Below the pieces are notes generated by a model that did no database searches, was not told the origin of the DNA, and saw only the letters and a program-made list of their open reading frames with translations. Below, in pieces: positions 52,181 to 60,906 of a stretch of DNA of 64,000 nucleotides. The DNA lies in assembly GCF_900163785.1 (NCBI RefSeq), contig NZ_FUKN01000005.1, forward strand, positions 1 to 64,000, written 5' to 3'. How positions within the stretch are numbered: the stretch's first letter is position 1; each line of letters begins with the position of its first letter. This stretch comes from Psychrobacter sp. JB385. GTDB lineage: Bacteria > Pseudomonadota > Gammaproteobacteria > Pseudomonadales > Moraxellaceae. A program made the position numbers and the translations under genes.

Positions 52181-53458
52181 TTAAGCCTTCTGCCACAACC
52201 CTTCGACATGAATCGTATCGGCTTCAATCGTGGGATAATCAGTAAATGACAATTGATAGCCGCCCACTGTGTTAGGAGTCAGCTGACAAGTCGCTCCAAG
52301 CGGAAAGCTGTGTTTTTTGCCAATATGACCAAAACGCATCCCACTATAAATGGGCAGTCCTGTCAATTTGTGCAACTGACGGACCACAGTAGCGACATCA
52401 TAACGCTTATCGTAGCTGTCCTCGCCCGAACCAGACAATGCGCCAAATACAATCGCTTGCTGACCCTTAAACATGCCCGCTAAGTACAAGTCATATAACA
52501 TGCGCTCAATGCGATAAGCCTGCTCGCCCACATCTTCCAAAAACACAATACCGCCCTTAATGCGCGGCAAATACTCACTGCCAGCCAGCGCTGAGACCAC
52601 ACTCAGGTTGCCACCCCAAATGGTGCCGCGCACTGCCTTCGGTTCACCTATTGTCAGAATACTGGGTAACTGCGGGCTGGTTAAAGACGCATCCTTGATG
52701 CTGATCGTCAGATTAGGGTTGCTCAAGGCATTGGCAAATTGTTGGCACGTTACTTGATCGGTATTGATTTTGCCAAACTCACTATAAAGCATGGGAGCCG
52801 CAAGTGAGCTCATCCCCCCTTTTGCCAATAGTGCACATTGAATAGCGGTCACATCACTAAACCCTGCGAGTATCGTGCCGCGTTCTTTCATAATACGCCC
52901 AAGCGTTGACCAATCAACCATCGGTAATAAACGCATCGCGCCATAGCCACCACGTACGCCCAATAGCAATTTAGGGGCCGCTATGGCACCAGTCGCGATA
53001 TTTTGAAGATCACTGGCGCGTTGCGCGTCCGTACCTGCAAAGCGCAAATATTGTCGACTGGTGATGGTAGGATTACTTATTTTAAACCCCGCACAAGCCA
53101 CACGATCCAGCGCCAATTGATTGCGCTCATCACTGCCGCCCACATTGGAGCTGGCAAAAAGCTGCGTTTCGATAGTGGGCGTAATACAGTTTATGGTGAG
53201 AGATGTCTGCGATGACGCATCATTTTGCACCAATGGCAGATCATCTTTGGTCAGTGACGTGCTGTTATCTTTGTCCGCTGTATTGGCAGCCAGAACTTGA
53301 GAGATGCTTTGAGTGGCTAACAATCCTGTGCCCGCACTTACTCCCAATTGCCGCAAAAACTGCCTGCGATTCAGTCCAGTTTTTGCATTCGTCACTGAAG
53401 CGGATTTTTGGCTATTGGCAGCGGTAGCGTCCTGTGTCCACGGTGTCTTTGAGACCAT
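52181..53458 (-). CDS. Tat-exported LD-carboxypeptidase (peptidase S66, LdcA family)
   Basis: 425 residues from the ATG at 53458, favoured because AAGGAAG lies upstream; an ATG at 53503 lacks a site. The N-terminus has a twin-arginine signal (NRRQFLRQLGVSAG). The S66 triad is present: Ser in GFSDVTA, Glu in FLEDVGEQAYRIERML, and His in GMRFGHIGKKHSFPLG, plus RGGYGAMRLL. LdcA removes the terminal D-Ala from muropeptide tetrapeptides during wall recycling. In E. coli it is cytoplasmic; this one is probably periplasmic, which is a real difference. Confidence 0.85.
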   Translation of the reverse strand: MVSKTPWTQDATAANSQKSASVTNAKTGLNRRQFLRQLGVSAGTGLLATQSISQVLAANTADKDNSTSLTKDDLPLVQNDASSQTSLTINCITPTIETQLFASSNVGGSDERNQLALDRVACAGFKISNPTITSRQYLRFAGTDAQRASDLQNIATGAIAAPKLLLGVRGGYGAMRLLPMVDWSTLGRIMKERGTILAGFSDVTAIQCALLAKGGMSSLAAPMLYSEFGKINTDQVTCQQFANALSNPNLTISIKDASLTSPQLPSILTIGEPKAVRGTIWGGNLSVVSALAGSEYLPRIKGGIVFLEDVGEQAYRIERMLYDLYLAGMFKGQQAIVFGALSGSGEDSYDKRYDVATVVRQLHKLTGLPIYSGMRFGHIGKKHSFPLGATCQLTPNTVGGYQLSFTDYPTIEADTIHVEGLWQKA

Positions 53459-53667
53459 ATCTTGCGACTTCCTTCTTACTTTTGTCTGAGTTGTTATTTT
53501 CATCAGCTATAAAAGACAAGATTATAACGTGCCTGCTCATAGATATGGTTGCCCAACCCTTGCCCGTATTTACTTTTTCGCTACTGTGCCGATAATGATG
53601 CTTGAATTGTCATATCCAACATAAAAAAGGCCGCTCTTGACGTAAACTTCATAACGCTTAAATAGCA

Positions 53668-54959: not shown

Positions 54960-56036
54960 CTAAAGACGGTCAAGCCCGACCGCGAGTATGTTTTTAGCTC
55001 CATTAACGTCGCGTTGATGGACAGTTTGACAAGAACTGCAAAACCATACTCTGACACCAAGATCTGCTCTACCTTTCGGACTGTCTTGGCGTGAGCCGCA
55101 ACACGAGCAGGTTTGGGTTGTGTACGCTTCATTTACTTCAATATAGTGACAACCTGCATTCTTGCATTTGTAATCCAGTTGCCGCTTAATTTCAAACCAA
55201 CCAGCGTCATAGACGGATTTGGCTAGATTTGTTGACGTGAATGATTTTGATTTTATCTTTCCAACAACGATTAAATTATTGGCTTTGACTAATGTATTGG
55301 TAAATTTATGAATTAGGTCTTGGCGGGTGTTTTTAATCTTGGCGTGAATGGCTCTGACTCGCTTTTTATGCTTAGCGCGTTGGGCGATTGCTAGCTTTTC
55401 AGCGTACTTATGAGTCAGCTTAGTGGTCAAAACATCACCATCACTGGTGACTGCTGACTCTTTACAGCCCAAATCAATACCAACTTGACCAGTACCACAA
55501 ACGGTTTTTGGAAACTCTTTAACGGTGATACAGGCGTACCAGTTACCACGAGAATCTTGCACTAGCTCACACGTATTGATGCTGTAGAGCGCTAGATTAT
55601 AGCTGTCCCACAAATCAATGATCAGCTTTTGACCTTTGGCTAAGCTGAGTTGCAGGGTGGTTTTCAAGCTTTTCTTACCTGATTGACGGGTTGCCAAGTG
55701 TTTGATAGCCGTCTTTTTAAAAGGAATCCACCCTAAGTTTCTACGTTTGGCTTTTGGGTTGTTGGTACGCCAATTGAGTTTGTCTTTTTTAAACTGTTTA
55801 CGAGACTTAGCGTGGGTTTCAGTGATGGCTTGTAAGGTTTGGCTGTGCAGGTTCAGGTATTCACCTGCGCCTTTGATGTAAGCAGCTAGATCGTAGGCTG
55901 AGAAGAAGTGACCTGTACGCTGCAAGTGTTTAAAACTCAACTCATTGACGTAATTCCAGACAAAATTAACCGCACCAGCCAATATATTTAGCTGACCTGC
56001 GTGTTTGTCTTTGATGCGTAGTTTGAGTGTTTTCAT
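54960..56036 (-). CDS. tnpB: TnpB (IS605 OrfB) RNA-guided nuclease, RuvC-II glutamate missing
   Basis: 358 residues. The N-terminal helix-turn-helix/REC-like part spans 1-180. RuvC-I Asp188 is in VGIDLGCKE, RuvC-III Asp343 in RDVNGAKNIL. A zinc ribbon uses Cys310/Cys313 and Cys333/Cys336. Canonical TnpB has Glu in an IEDL-like motif; here the matching segment reads LIVVGKIKS with Gly259, so that Glu is absent. Glu303 in NEAYTTQTC is a possible relocated carboxylate. Family role: cuts DNA at the donor site to promote element retention. Confidence 0.85.
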   Translation of the reverse strand: MKTLKLRIKDKHAGQLNILAGAVNFVWNYVNELSFKHLQRTGHFFSAYDLAAYIKGAGEYLNLHSQTLQAITETHAKSRKQFKKDKLNWRTNNPKAKRRNLGWIPFKKTAIKHLATRQSGKKSLKTTLQLSLAKGQKLIIDLWDSYNLALYSINTCELVQDSRGNWYACITVKEFPKTVCGTGQVGIDLGCKESAVTSDGDVLTTKLTHKYAEKLAIAQRAKHKKRVRAIHAKIKNTRQDLIHKFTNTLVKANNLIVVGKIKSKSFTSTNLAKSVYDAGWFEIKRQLDYKCKNAGCHYIEVNEAYTTQTCSCCGSRQDSPKGRADLGVRVWFCSSCQTVHQRDVNGAKNILAVGLDRL

Positions 56037-56334
56037 GAGCTAAGTATGGTTGTGTGTTATATTAAAATCAACAGCCATTAACAGCTATGCGACAGCTGCT
56101 GACGCCTGATATCCACGCCCATCGACGTGACGTGGTTTTACGGCGCTAGGTGATAAATTGCCATACAATAGGGTATCTATGAGTTCGCGATTTTGTACAT
56201 GACGACTGCCCATATCAGCGATAGATTTGTTATACTCAAACCCAGCATCTAGATGGGTCGTTATGGTCATCCTCACCGTAGCACCGCTTTTCTTTCTCTC
56301 CCTTATTCAGCACTTATCAGGTCAATATATTTTT

Positions 56335-57978
56335 ATGTCAGACAATCGCAACACACCTTCATTGAACCCACATAGCGCGATGAACCCATTGGCTGCCAAA
56401 GCGAATACCACTGTGGCCTATACCGATGGCGCCTGTAAAGGCAACCCTGGTGCTGGCGGCTGGGGTGCCCATCTTATTTTTAGTGATGGACGTACGCAGG
56501 ATCTATACGGTGGTGATAAAGAGACCACCAATAATCGTATGGAATTGATGGGTGCCATACAAGCACTGATGCACAGTCCTCTTGAGCACAGACTTGAGAT
56601 TTGGACCGACTCAAGTTATGTCCAAAAAGGGATTACAGAATGGATTGAGGGCTGGAAAAAAAGAGGCTGGAAAACAGCCGGCAAAAAGCCTGTGGCCAAT
56701 CAGGACCTGTGGCAACAATTGGATGCGTTGACTCAAAAACGTGATGTTGATTGGCACTGGGTGAAAGGTCATGCTGGACATGCTGGCAACGAAAAAGCGG
56801 ATGAGTTAGCCAACCTAGGCGTTACCTCCAGTAGCGACCATTCATCAGCCCTGCACACACAAGATTTATCTAAAAAAAAAGTGCCTTTAACGACTGACGA
56901 GACATCAACGGCTTCTGGGCACGATTGGCTAAGTTTTGACCCGCTAGGTCTTGATATGAGCGACGATGAGCTTGATGACGAACTTGATAATGAGTCACTA
57001 GAAAGTCATAACAATGACAATAACATGATGGCTAAAGACGCTATAATAGACACAAATCGTTATGAGGCACACACTCATACACCGTCTCATACGACCAAAC
57101 CAATGAGTACTATAGATATGCCAGAAGCCCATGTACCAATGAATGTAACAACATCTGTACCAATGACCGATACAATGAATGAAGACAAGCTGCCAGAGAT
57201 AGCGGATGATGGTGTCAAATTCGATGGTGATACCAGTCGTGCCAATCCACACTTTAAGCCACTACTGCCTGAGCCAAAGCACCGTCATGAATTTGATCGT
57301 CAATTGATTATGGATACCGAGACCACAGGACTTGATGCGCTAAAAGGCGATCGTGTCATCGAAGTCGGTATCGTTGAGATGGTTGGTCGTAAATTTACTG
57401 GCGAAAAACTGCATGTCTATATCAATCCACAGCGCGGCATGGATGAAGAAGTCATTCGCATTCATGGTATCTCTGAAGCATTTTTGGCGGATAAGCCAAC
57501 CTTTGATCAAGTAGCAAAATCGCTATATGACTTTATGGATGGGGCAGAAATCATCGCTCATAATGCCTCGTTTGATATGAACTTCTTAAATATGGAGTTT
57601 GCCAAAGTTGGTCTCAATGACTTTGCCGAGCGGGTGCGAGTGACTGACTCTTTGGCCATGGCAAAACAGCAGTATCCGGGGCAAAAAAACACCCTGGATG
57701 CTTTGGTAAGGCGCTTAGATGTTGGTAAGCAAGATCGTACTTTTCACGGTGCTTTACTTGACTCAGAGATTTTGGCTGAAGTATATTTAGCGATGACAGG
57801 TGGGCAGGTCACGCTCGCCATTGAAGAAGATACACAAACTGAGGGCGGACAAACTGCCCATGCCAACTTTGCCGATCTAGCCGCTTTATTACTGGCGTCA
57901 AGTACAGACGAAGACGCAAACCAACAATGGTACACCTCGCTTTCAGAGGACTACCCTGAGCTTAAAGCCAATATGTAG
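56335..57978 (+). CDS. RNase HI - DNA polymerase III epsilon (DnaQ) fusion protein
   Basis: 547 residues from the ATG at 56335; a TTG frame upstream is rejected. Residues 25-163 are a complete RNase HI: Asp31, Glu70, Asp92, His146, Asp156. Residues 164-320 are an acidic, Asp/Ser/Thr/His-rich, probably flexible linker. Residues 321-490 are the DnaQ 3'-5' exonuclease: Asp327/Glu329 in DTET, Asp414, His471 and Asp476. One polypeptide would combine RNA:DNA hybrid removal and replicative proofreading. rnhA and dnaQ are adjacent separate genes in many relatives. Confidence 0.92.
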
Positions 57979-58122: not shown

Positions 58123-59805
58123 ATGGACCAGTCTGCGCAAATGAAGTTAACCGCTCCCACGCTTAGTATTACTGATTTCAATTTACCCTCACTACATTTG
58201 CTGCATGATGAGATTGTCGTAACGCTAAAAGATGCCGAAATTCATCTGGGCGAGTTCAATGACGATGACAGTCAGGCACCTTTACTACTAGATTCTATTG
58301 TTGTCCTAAAGCAACTATCCTATATTTTTAAACTGATCTCTTTGGTCGGTGCCGAAGTCTTAAATACCGCAATTGTCAATGGATTACAGCGCCTTTATGA
58401 CAATGGTGACAATAACGACATTCATTTGATTATGGATCTATCAGAAGCCATTATGACCCTAGAGCGTTATGTCGAATTTGTGCTATTGACGGAGTCGGTA
58501 GAGCCTATTTTATTATTGCCAGTGATCAACAAACTGAACGCTCATAGTCACCAAAACCTTATTTCAGCGGACTATTTTTCTGCTTTTGGTAGCAGTAGTG
58601 TCATCATTGCCAACCCTGAAAGCAATTTTCAGCCACTCAAAGAGCTGGATGTGAACAACGAACTACTGACCTCCGCTTATCGTAGCGGGCTTAGTGTGGT
58701 TTTGCTCAATCAAAATGGCAATGTCAGCCCAGATGAGCAACAAAAAATCGATGCCATGAGTGCGGCCTGTGCACTGATCGCCTCAAAGACCGATAGTTTA
58801 TTTTGGCAAGCAGCCAATGCCGCTGTCACGGATATCGCCACTCTATTGCCGCTAACCTTGAGTCAAAAACATATCTTTATTTATTTGGAACAACAATTCC
58901 AAAGCTATCTGCCAGTGATGGATAGACGTTTTGCTGATTTGGTCAGCTTTGCATGTCAGCGTGACACGACTGAGGCGCAGCAACTGCGTGAACTGTACGC
59001 TGACAACCAGTTGGAAGGGCCTCAGATTGAACAGATGAAGCGCTTCTTATTTGGGCCAAATCGTGCGCTGACCGATACTTTGAATACCATTATTCAGACC
59101 CAAATCAACACAATCAAAGAAGATGTAGACAGCTACGCACGCGGTGACTCCATCAATCCTGCTGACATGCAGACAGCGCAGATCATTGACGAGCTCACTA
59201 CCTTGAGCTCAGCACTACGTTTGCTTGGCCTCACAAATGCTGCCAGCAGTCTGAGTACCGCAGCACAAGCGGTCAAGCATTGGCGAGCGCCTGCACCTGA
59301 AGACTTTGATCATTTATTATTGGCATTGATGCATGCAGAAAACGCCACCATCGCAATGGCAGAGACACACACGCCAGGGGCTATTTATTTACCATTGAAC
59401 AACCCTCATATCTCACTGCACCAGCTCAATACTGCCAATGATACCTTGATTCAAGAAAGTCGCACTGCGATTGCCAGTGCCGAACAAGCCATCACTGATT
59501 ATTTGGACGAGCCAGAGCGAGATTTACTGAATATTCAAAACGTACCCGAAATGATGCGCCAAGTATCAGGAGCTGTACGCTTTTTGCAACTGCCGACTCC
59601 TGCCAGCATGCTCAGTCAATTGGCTAATTATATTGAGCAACGCATCGAAAGTGGACAACGCATAGACGATGATACCCTGTCCTATATTGCTGATATTATT
59701 ATGGCCGTTGATTATCATTTAGAAGGGTTTGAACACAATCGTCCTGTCAGTAAACAGGCGCTCAATGTGGGTCAACAAAGCTTAAGTGCGTTACTGGCGG
59801 CTTAA
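58123..59805 (+). CDS. Free-standing ChpA N-terminal-like (Hpt-region) protein
   Basis: 560 residues, all helical, without signal or membrane segment. The sequence resembles the first ~550 residues of the type IV pilus chemosensor ChpA: LLLPVINKLNAHSHQNLISA, FLFGPNRALTDTLN and IQNVPEMMRQVSGAVRFLQL are near the matching points, compared from memory. No CheA kinase core, receiver or other pil-chp gene follows; the next gene is nudC. So it is either a split ChpA or an independent scaffold. Gene starts 144 bases after the fusion gene's stop. Confidence 0.6.
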   Translation: MDQSAQMKLTAPTLSITDFNLPSLHLLHDEIVVTLKDAEIHLGEFNDDDSQAPLLLDSIVVLKQLSYIFKLISLVGAEVLNTAIVNGLQRLYDNGDNNDIHLIMDLSEAIMTLERYVEFVLLTESVEPILLLPVINKLNAHSHQNLISADYFSAFGSSSVIIANPESNFQPLKELDVNNELLTSAYRSGLSVVLLNQNGNVSPDEQQKIDAMSAACALIASKTDSLFWQAANAAVTDIATLLPLTLSQKHIFIYLEQQFQSYLPVMDRRFADLVSFACQRDTTEAQQLRELYADNQLEGPQIEQMKRFLFGPNRALTDTLNTIIQTQINTIKEDVDSYARGDSINPADMQTAQIIDELTTLSSALRLLGLTNAASSLSTAAQAVKHWRAPAPEDFDHLLLALMHAENATIAMAETHTPGAIYLPLNNPHISLHQLNTANDTLIQESRTAIASAEQAITDYLDEPERDLLNIQNVPEMMRQVSGAVRFLQLPTPASMLSQLANYIEQRIESGQRIDDDTLSYIADIIMAVDYHLEGFEHNRPVSKQALNVGQQSLSALLAA

Positions 59806-59946
59806 TGACGATACGGTTTGATCGTGATGACCATCGTTATGTGCATGATGTTTCATTACGATAGAATTCTCTACATTTTTATTACTTCAAACAGGTTTGT
59901 ATGTCATGTACTACAAACTTGTTTTTAATGCTTTGGAATGTCGTAT

Positions 59947-60906
59947 ATGACCCATGCTTTTGTATTTCGTGATGACACGCTTTTATGTCGTCAAACATCT
60001 GATGGCTGGTGGCCATTGCAGGTTCAATTACCGCAGTCTACTCCACAATCAGAAGATGGCGAGCGTTCACCAACCTATCAAGTGGGTCGAGTCGCGCTAC
60101 TTGAGAGCCTAGCACCCAGTCATTGGTTGTCTGATAGTTTGCCAAAGAGCTCCGTTGAGTCTGGACATCAAGCGATTGAGACTGATAGTGTTGACACTTT
60201 CACAGCACAAAGCACCAATGCCGTTACTGATACCTACGCTCTAGCGCACAATATGGTATTGCCAGCGATTACCGACCATAGCGGATACGATTTTTTGCCT
60301 TATCGACAGCTGATTACCCAGCTGCCTATCGCATTATCTACGCAAATCAGTCAAGCCATACAGCTACTGCGTTGGCAACAAGATACGCAGTTTTGTAGTC
60401 GCTGTGCCACACCTGCTGTTCATACCAAAACAGATGAACGCGCAATGGTTTGTCCTGTGTGCCAGTTGCGCCAGTATCCTCGTGTCCAGCCATGTGTCAT
60501 CACCGCGATCACTCGTCCCAACCCAACAACAGGTGAGATGCAAATTTTACTGGCTCAGCATCGACGCCATGGTGTACAAAAGCAACCGGCGATGTATGGT
60601 TTGATTGCCGGCTTCGTCGAAGTGGGTGAAAGTCTAGAGCATGCTGTGGTACGCGAAGTTGCAGAAGAGGTCAACATCAGTGTGACCGACATACGCTACG
60701 TAAGCAGTCAGCCTTGGCCATTTCCTTCTAACTTGATGCTGGGTTTTAGAGCCACTTATGCAGAGGGCGACATTGTTATTCAAGAAGAAGAGCTGACCCA
60801 CGCGGATTTTTTTGATATCTCAAACCTGCCCCAAATTCCTTTTAAGGGCAGTATTGCTTATGAATTGATTGCACTCGTCGCTCATGAGCAGGGCCTGAGC
60901 TTATAA
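59947..60906 (+). CDS. nudC: NAD+ diphosphatase NudC (NAD-cap decapping)
   Basis: 319 residues from the ATG at 59947, with GGA nine bases upstream; an ATG three codons earlier is possible. The zinc ribbon is CSRC and CPVC (around 155-180). The Nudix box spans GFVEVGESLEHAVVREVAEE near 215-240, followed by the NudC signature SQPWPFPSNLMLGF. It cleaves NAD(H) to NMN and AMP and removes NAD caps from RNA. Confidence 0.93.
   Translation: MTHAFVFRDDTLLCRQTSDGWWPLQVQLPQSTPQSEDGERSPTYQVGRVALLESLAPSHWLSDSLPKSSVESGHQAIETDSVDTFTAQSTNAVTDTYALAHNMVLPAITDHSGYDFLPYRQLITQLPIALSTQISQAIQLLRWQQDTQFCSRCATPAVHTKTDERAMVCPVCQLRQYPRVQPCVITAITRPNPTTGEMQILLAQHRRHGVQKQPAMYGLIAGFVEVGESLEHAVVREVAEEVNISVTDIRYVSSQPWPFPSNLMLGFRATYAEGDIVIQEEELTHADFFDISNLPQIPFKGSIAYELIALVAHEQGLSL

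Follow-up and report, generated by a model that had tools for sequence, protein, structure and literature searches.

A stand-alone protein of Psychrobacter sp. JB385 is very probably FimL, an old paralogue of the ChpA N-terminus

The window, by which we mean the whole stretch of 64,000 nucleotides analysed here (positions 1 to 64,000 of the forward strand of contig NZ_FUKN01000005.1 from Psychrobacter sp. JB385), belongs to a genome of 3.3 Mb in 14 contigs. On its plus strand, at 58123..59805, lies an open reading frame that begins with an ATG at 58123, stops at 59805 and is translated without internal stops into 560 amino acids; the coordinates, strand and length given for it in an earlier note, written from the sequence alone, proved exact. 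The single frame translated from the opposite strand contains many stops, and the window's ORF list holds no frame of at least 80 amino acids opposite the gene. At a cut-off of E ≤ 1e-3, and with the own genome counted both times, the protein was matched in 34 of 38 genomes and in 224 of 249 genomes sampled from the family. In addition, 50 loci on contigs named Psychrobacter were 79-85% identical to it, in a search that reaches close relatives only. The ORF is a real gene; since the frame is conserved across genomes, a chance ORF is excluded. We refer to it as fimL, on grounds that include its conservation, its match to the ChpA N-terminus, a phylogenetic tree and a helical structure model.

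Upstream of fimL, at 56227..57978 on the plus strand, is a 583-amino-acid protein in which RNase H (rnhA) and a DnaQ-type exonuclease are fused (Pfam RNase_H and RNase_T). Downstream, at 59938..60906 on the same strand, lies a 322-amino-acid NudC-like NUDIX hydrolase with an NADH-pyrophosphatase zinc ribbon (Pfam), followed by ORFs which by eye look transporter-like and LysR-like, and by an RnfB-like ferredoxin. The earlier remark that the frame is followed by neither a CheA core nor a receiver or pilus gene is therefore accurate. Relatives of the two flanking genes were sought by phmmer (E ≤ 1e-5) in 18 fimL loci, some of which stop early at contig ends: an rnhA/dnaQ relative was near fimL in 16 (12/12 within the family, 4/6 in other families) and a nudC relative in nine (8/12 and 1/6, respectively). 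The rnhA and dnaQ parts were two separate frames in three loci of order relatives (L071, L073, L074) and in three from the same genus (L081, L082, L083). In P. aeruginosa, nudC presumably adjoins fimL, with rnhA-dnaQ nearby. A promoter scan found 8 candidates against a mean of 6.3 in shuffled sequence, which is near chance, and a terminator scan found 5 against a mean of 2.5, a little above chance; neither scan supports an operon. Two further genes lie on the minus strand. One (54960-56036) encodes a TnpB/OrfB-like protein of 358 amino acids, with Cas12f1-like_TNB above the cut-off and OrfB_IS605 just under it, and the other (52181-53503) encodes an LD-carboxypeptidase with both Peptidase_S66 domains and an N-terminal stretch that by eye resembles a twin-arginine signal.

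Searches of the protein against Pfam, NCBIfam and PHROGs returned no family match, and phmmer against the PDB gave one chance match. We relied on a profile, A1, made from 22 free-standing proteins and containing no ChpA sequences. With hmmsearch, A1 recognised residues ~4-560 in all five order-level ChpAs scanned (domain E-values of 4.7e-59 to 4e-101). In a profile-profile comparison with the N-termini of order-level ChpAs, the two aligned over 541 columns with a probability of 100% and an E-value of 1.7e-62; here and below, E-values of such comparisons are those of single pairs. The earlier note had likened the protein to the N-terminal part of ChpA, and against order-level ChpAs this likeness is strong; the profile match, whose absence would have spoken against the idea, is a strong one. 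The homology fits what has been published on P. aeruginosa FimL, which is homologous, according to excerpts of PMC3019171, to residues 1-563 of ChpA, a protein of 2477 residues, and which is listed as 1822 in PMC8088505.

Free-standing copies also occur among the 13 order relatives. Five of these (G025, G027, G028, G029, and G030) have frames of 550-589 amino acids that are matched nearly end to end; in G025 the match extends upstream across one TGA, the ORF proper being 550 amino acids. When aligned, these five copies were 19-21% identical to the Psychrobacter protein. Four of the five genomes (G025, G027, G029, and G030) have, besides the free-standing copy, a second and separate frame, for ChpA, that exceeds 2000 amino acids and is matched in its N-terminal part, and in G028 no long ChpA frame was matched. 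In G032, the match covers the last ~540 residues of a 727-amino-acid frame, and a 2155-amino-acid frame is weakly matched. Three relatives (G026, G034, and G037) gave no match, and the remaining ones were matched only in long or short frames.

To place the protein, we used a maximum-likelihood tree of 31 rows, comprising the 22 free-standing proteins and nine ChpA N-termini, five of them from the order and four (out of 16 sequences) from the family. One branch, with support of 100/99, sets all 22 free-standing proteins opposite the nine ChpA N-termini, and the Psychrobacter protein grouped among its same-genus kin. The four family ChpA N-termini sit on a very long branch of 3.51 changes per column, and their exact place is unsure for this reason.

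The genome of Psychrobacter sp. JB385 has a ChpA of its own. This protein (P0002) is complete, with 2317 amino acids comprising five Hpt stretches, HATPase, CheW and receiver domains, and is encoded at a separate locus; the kinase-core search found a second, weaker match (E = 7.5e-26) in a 735-amino-acid frame. BLASTP of FimL against the own ChpA gave an E-value of 0.03, in a different Hpt region, and a search of the own ChpA with the FimL profile returned nothing at E ≤ 0.1. As BLASTP was uninformative, we chose a profile comparison, in which the N-terminal part of the own ChpA aligned with the FimL profile over 462 columns (probability 97%, pair E-value of 1.2e-10) and with the order-level ChpA N-termini over 477 columns (probability 95.7%). 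Judged by these profiles, the N-terminal part of the own ChpA is present, yet highly diverged.

The situation differs in g28, which is, apart from the own genus, the best-represented one in the family sample. Its size, and the lack of pilK between the MCP and ChpA genes, suggest that g28 is probably Acinetobacter, which we take to belong to the same bacterial family as Psychrobacter. In the excerpts of PMC9596432, pilK is likewise absent between these two genes in A. baylyi. In all five g28 loci that were fetched, ChpA is only 1496-1715 residues long and has no match to the FimL or the ChpA N-terminal profile at E ≤ 0.1 (L099:5989-10482, L100:5989-10485, L101:5989-10479, L134:268-5415, and L135:226-5367). 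Each of the five genomes with such an N-terminally short ChpA has a FimL match elsewhere. From stop to stop, the frames in G201 and G260 measure 1723 and 1721 amino acids.

One of the two readings offered in the earlier note was that the protein is half of a split ChpA, namely a detached N-terminal half that the remainder, encoded elsewhere, needs as a subunit. The match of FimL to residues ~1-560 of order-level ChpAs, together with the short g28 ChpAs, is what such a split might look like. However, the genome-wide check turned up the complete 2317-amino-acid ChpA with a diverged N-terminal part of its own, and this refutes the idea for the own genome. Moreover, in four order relatives, and in G066 from the same family, the separate copy exists in addition to a ChpA N-terminus, and the tree parts the two groups of sequences. 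We give a split ChpA scarcely any probability. As a very probable FimL in a genome that also has a whole ChpA, the protein is instead a regular representative of an established family.

Another idea is that ChpA has seen its N-terminal module decay in some lineages of the family, to a highly diverged form in Psychrobacter and to absence in g28, and that free-standing FimL was kept and, as the main or only carrier of the ancestral module, took over the holding of PilG. A module formerly present in two copies would then have passed from cis to trans. We consider this unlikely, although deserving of some weight. Its odds are lowered by G066 (genus g16, same family), which keeps a typical ChpA N-terminus (E-values of 2e-104 with the FimL profile and 5e-178 with the order-level ChpA N-terminal profile), and any such change is therefore not family-wide.

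The Hpt-like nature of the protein bears on its possible activity. In the alignment with the five order-level ChpAs, the first Hpt-like bundle has a histidine, within an HQ stretch, in 5/5 ChpAs; the corresponding residue in Psychrobacter FimL is Lys63 (codon 63, at 58309..58311, +). Only one of the 22 free-standing proteins has a histidine in this column, and 21 do not; Q64, next to Lys63, is nearly invariant among them. Within the family, H46 is kept in at least 90% of the 16 ChpA N-termini. At the equivalent position in the last bundle, where the alignment was read by eye, Psychrobacter FimL carries Arg479, and a histidine is missing from all 22 free-standing proteins; only one of the five order-level ChpAs has a histidine there. 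Eight of the 22 have a histidine a few residues before R479, at the position of N470 in Psychrobacter FimL. By this reading, the second part of which was made by eye, FimL has no acceptor histidine at its Hpt-like sites (Lys63 and Arg479).

Comparable observations have been published for P. aeruginosa FimL, which, in excerpts of PMC3019171, is described as having Gln rather than His at two putative acceptor sites and is argued to be unlikely to carry out canonical phosphotransfer. Q64 and Q480 of the Psychrobacter protein are each one residue past the aligned acceptor positions, in alignments that comprised the free-standing proteins and the order-level ChpAs. With the His of ChpA replaced by Lys in FimL, phosphotransfer at the first site is unlikely, and, from the aligned residues, canonical phosphotransfer by Psychrobacter FimL at either site seems unlikely as well.

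We also considered whether a FimL homologue might still serve in phosphotransfer by way of a different residue. An AlphaFold model of FimL is nearly all helix, with a mean pLDDT of 65 and a pTM of 0.34; given this moderate quality and poor pTM, we used it only for helix content. A Foldseek search of the model against the PDB yielded no match at E ≤ 0.001. Parts of the model nevertheless resemble CheA P1 domains (TM-scores by target mostly 0.75-0.85, with E-values of 0.13 to 2.2), and the FimL profile had three weak matches in the PDB, including CheA P1 (1i5n, E = 0.039), although a designed four-helix bundle scored better (E = 0.0051). These similarities favor a phosphotransfer role, but the lysine at the first site, the near-absence of histidine there in other free-standing proteins, its complete absence at the R479 position by eye, and the published argument from PMC3019171 weigh against it. 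We assign the idea a small probability, and rejected the label of phosphotransfer protein owing to the absence of histidine from the aligned sites. The term Hpt-containing, used in the earlier note, has to be qualified: parts of the moderate model do resemble CheA P1, but there is no Pfam Hpt match and the first-site histidine is missing.

Besides fimL, the genome has its partner genes. A Pil-Chp cluster of two receivers, CheW, MCP, CheR, ChpA and CheB lies on a contig other than that of fimL, a FimV_Cterm match above the cut-off lies at another locus, and the genome has a class III nucleotide cyclase as well as two adjacent matches to PilT-family ATPases above the cut-off. We asked how FimL (E ≤ 1e-3) and ChpA are distributed over the family, scoring ChpA as strong when the best E-value was < 1e-100, a threshold set after the list had been seen. 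The two agree in 243 of the 249 genomes (219 with both, 24 with neither), with five having FimL only and one ChpA only (Fisher p = 1.8e-27, uncorrected for relatedness among the 249 genomes). The one genome with a strong ChpA and no FimL, G052, is 68% complete.

The five genomes with FimL and no strong ChpA match are G040, G066, G120, G132, and G255. Since the first ChpA survey scored only two candidates per genome, we rechecked with a kinase-core search in which all candidates were scored. None of the 29 genomes with a weak or no ChpA match reached E < 1e-100, and the controls were strong in 3/3 cases; CheA-like cores with best E-values of ~1e-48 to 1e-51 were found in five of seven g15 genomes, in G040 and in G066. 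In G066, the frame bearing the ChpA N-terminus (855 amino acids) is cut by the contig end, and the assembly thus accounts for at least part of the failure of G066 to give a strong match. Some of the uncoupling is real, however, because G120 and G255 (both g28; loci L114 and L115) are nearly complete genomes without a match to the ChpA kinase core and keep full-length, albeit weakly matching, FimL frames of 557 and 543 amino acids, respectively. On the strength of these frames, it appears that FimL can persist where ChpA is gone, or can have another use.

These two genomes, along with the partly conserved neighbors of fimL and the location of the Pil-Chp genes on another contig, might suggest that FimL has moved away from type IV pili to some other function, such as one linked to rnhA-dnaQ or nudC. 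Yet FimL presence tracks that of ChpA in 243 of the 249 family genomes, and nudC was not found in half of the 18 loci. The probability that we attach to such a drift is very small.

Instead, we favor FimL as a scaffold without catalytic activity that would link FimV to PilG/ChpA, which by analogy is the likeliest role. It would be a soluble, helical adaptor built of degenerate Hpt-like helix bundles, and would most likely dock on the landmark protein FimV and keep PilG, a response regulator, close to the Pil-Chp complex of ChpA and PilJ, outside phosphotransfer. By holding PilG there, it would favor both the production of cAMP by the class III cyclase and the placement of type IV pili. What is proposed here about FimV and PilG as binding partners, about cAMP and about where the pili are placed is carried over from work on P. 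aeruginosa and Acinetobacter. In the excerpted literature, P. aeruginosa FimL promotes CyaB-dependent cAMP synthesis (PMC3019171), FimL together with ChpA recruits PilG to the poles (PMC10519157), and A. baylyi FimL brings down a FimV homologue in pull-downs and is required for the pili to form a line (PMC9596432). The second reading of the earlier note, an independent FimV/ChpA-like scaffold, came close to this, except that such a scaffold is already known as FimL, as the same excerpts make plain (PMC3019171, PMC9596432, and PMC10519157). The label of FimV-like protein we rejected, as no NCBIfam match to the FimV C-terminal domain was found in FimL.

Compared with the known systems, the Psychrobacter protein resembles P. 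aeruginosa FimL, which, as described in excerpts of PMC3019171, is likewise a stand-alone homologue of the ChpA N-terminus without the acceptor histidine, alongside a separate ChpA. The two differ, by description, in having Gln at the acceptor sites (PMC3019171) and Lys at the aligned first site, respectively. A. baylyi FimL is, according to PMC9596432, a Pil-Chp factor whose gene stands apart from the main operon and which the cell requires to localize its pili, and FimL of Acinetobacter (A. baylyi/A. baumannii) is listed in PMC8088505. The Acinetobacter-like free-standing proteins of g28 are about 19-26% identical to Psychrobacter FimL among the matches listed. The N-terminal region of ChpA is homologous to FimL over nearly the whole length; unlike FimL, ChpA continues into further Hpts, a kinase core, CheW and a receiver, and it keeps the first-site histidine that FimL does not, the two lying on opposite sides of the tree.

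Taken together, we have high confidence that the gene is Psychrobacter fimL, encoding a stand-alone protein, an ancient paralogue of ChpA residues ~1-560, that would act as a non-catalytic FimV/PilG adaptor. The name, which very probably applies, rests on the profile, the tree, the gene order and the published description of P. aeruginosa FimL. A literature search on both names, judged by titles, found no paper on FimL in Psychrobacter, and the protein is very probably an ordinary orthologue of one that is already known and named. The analysis thus provides a likely name for a gene left unnamed by Pfam and NCBIfam, and indicates that a Psychrobacter-like bacterium holds the set of Pil-Chp, FimL, FimV and cyclase known for pilus control. 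In some relatives, FimL is kept while the N-terminus of ChpA is diverged or missing, which would offer a natural test of what this module does.
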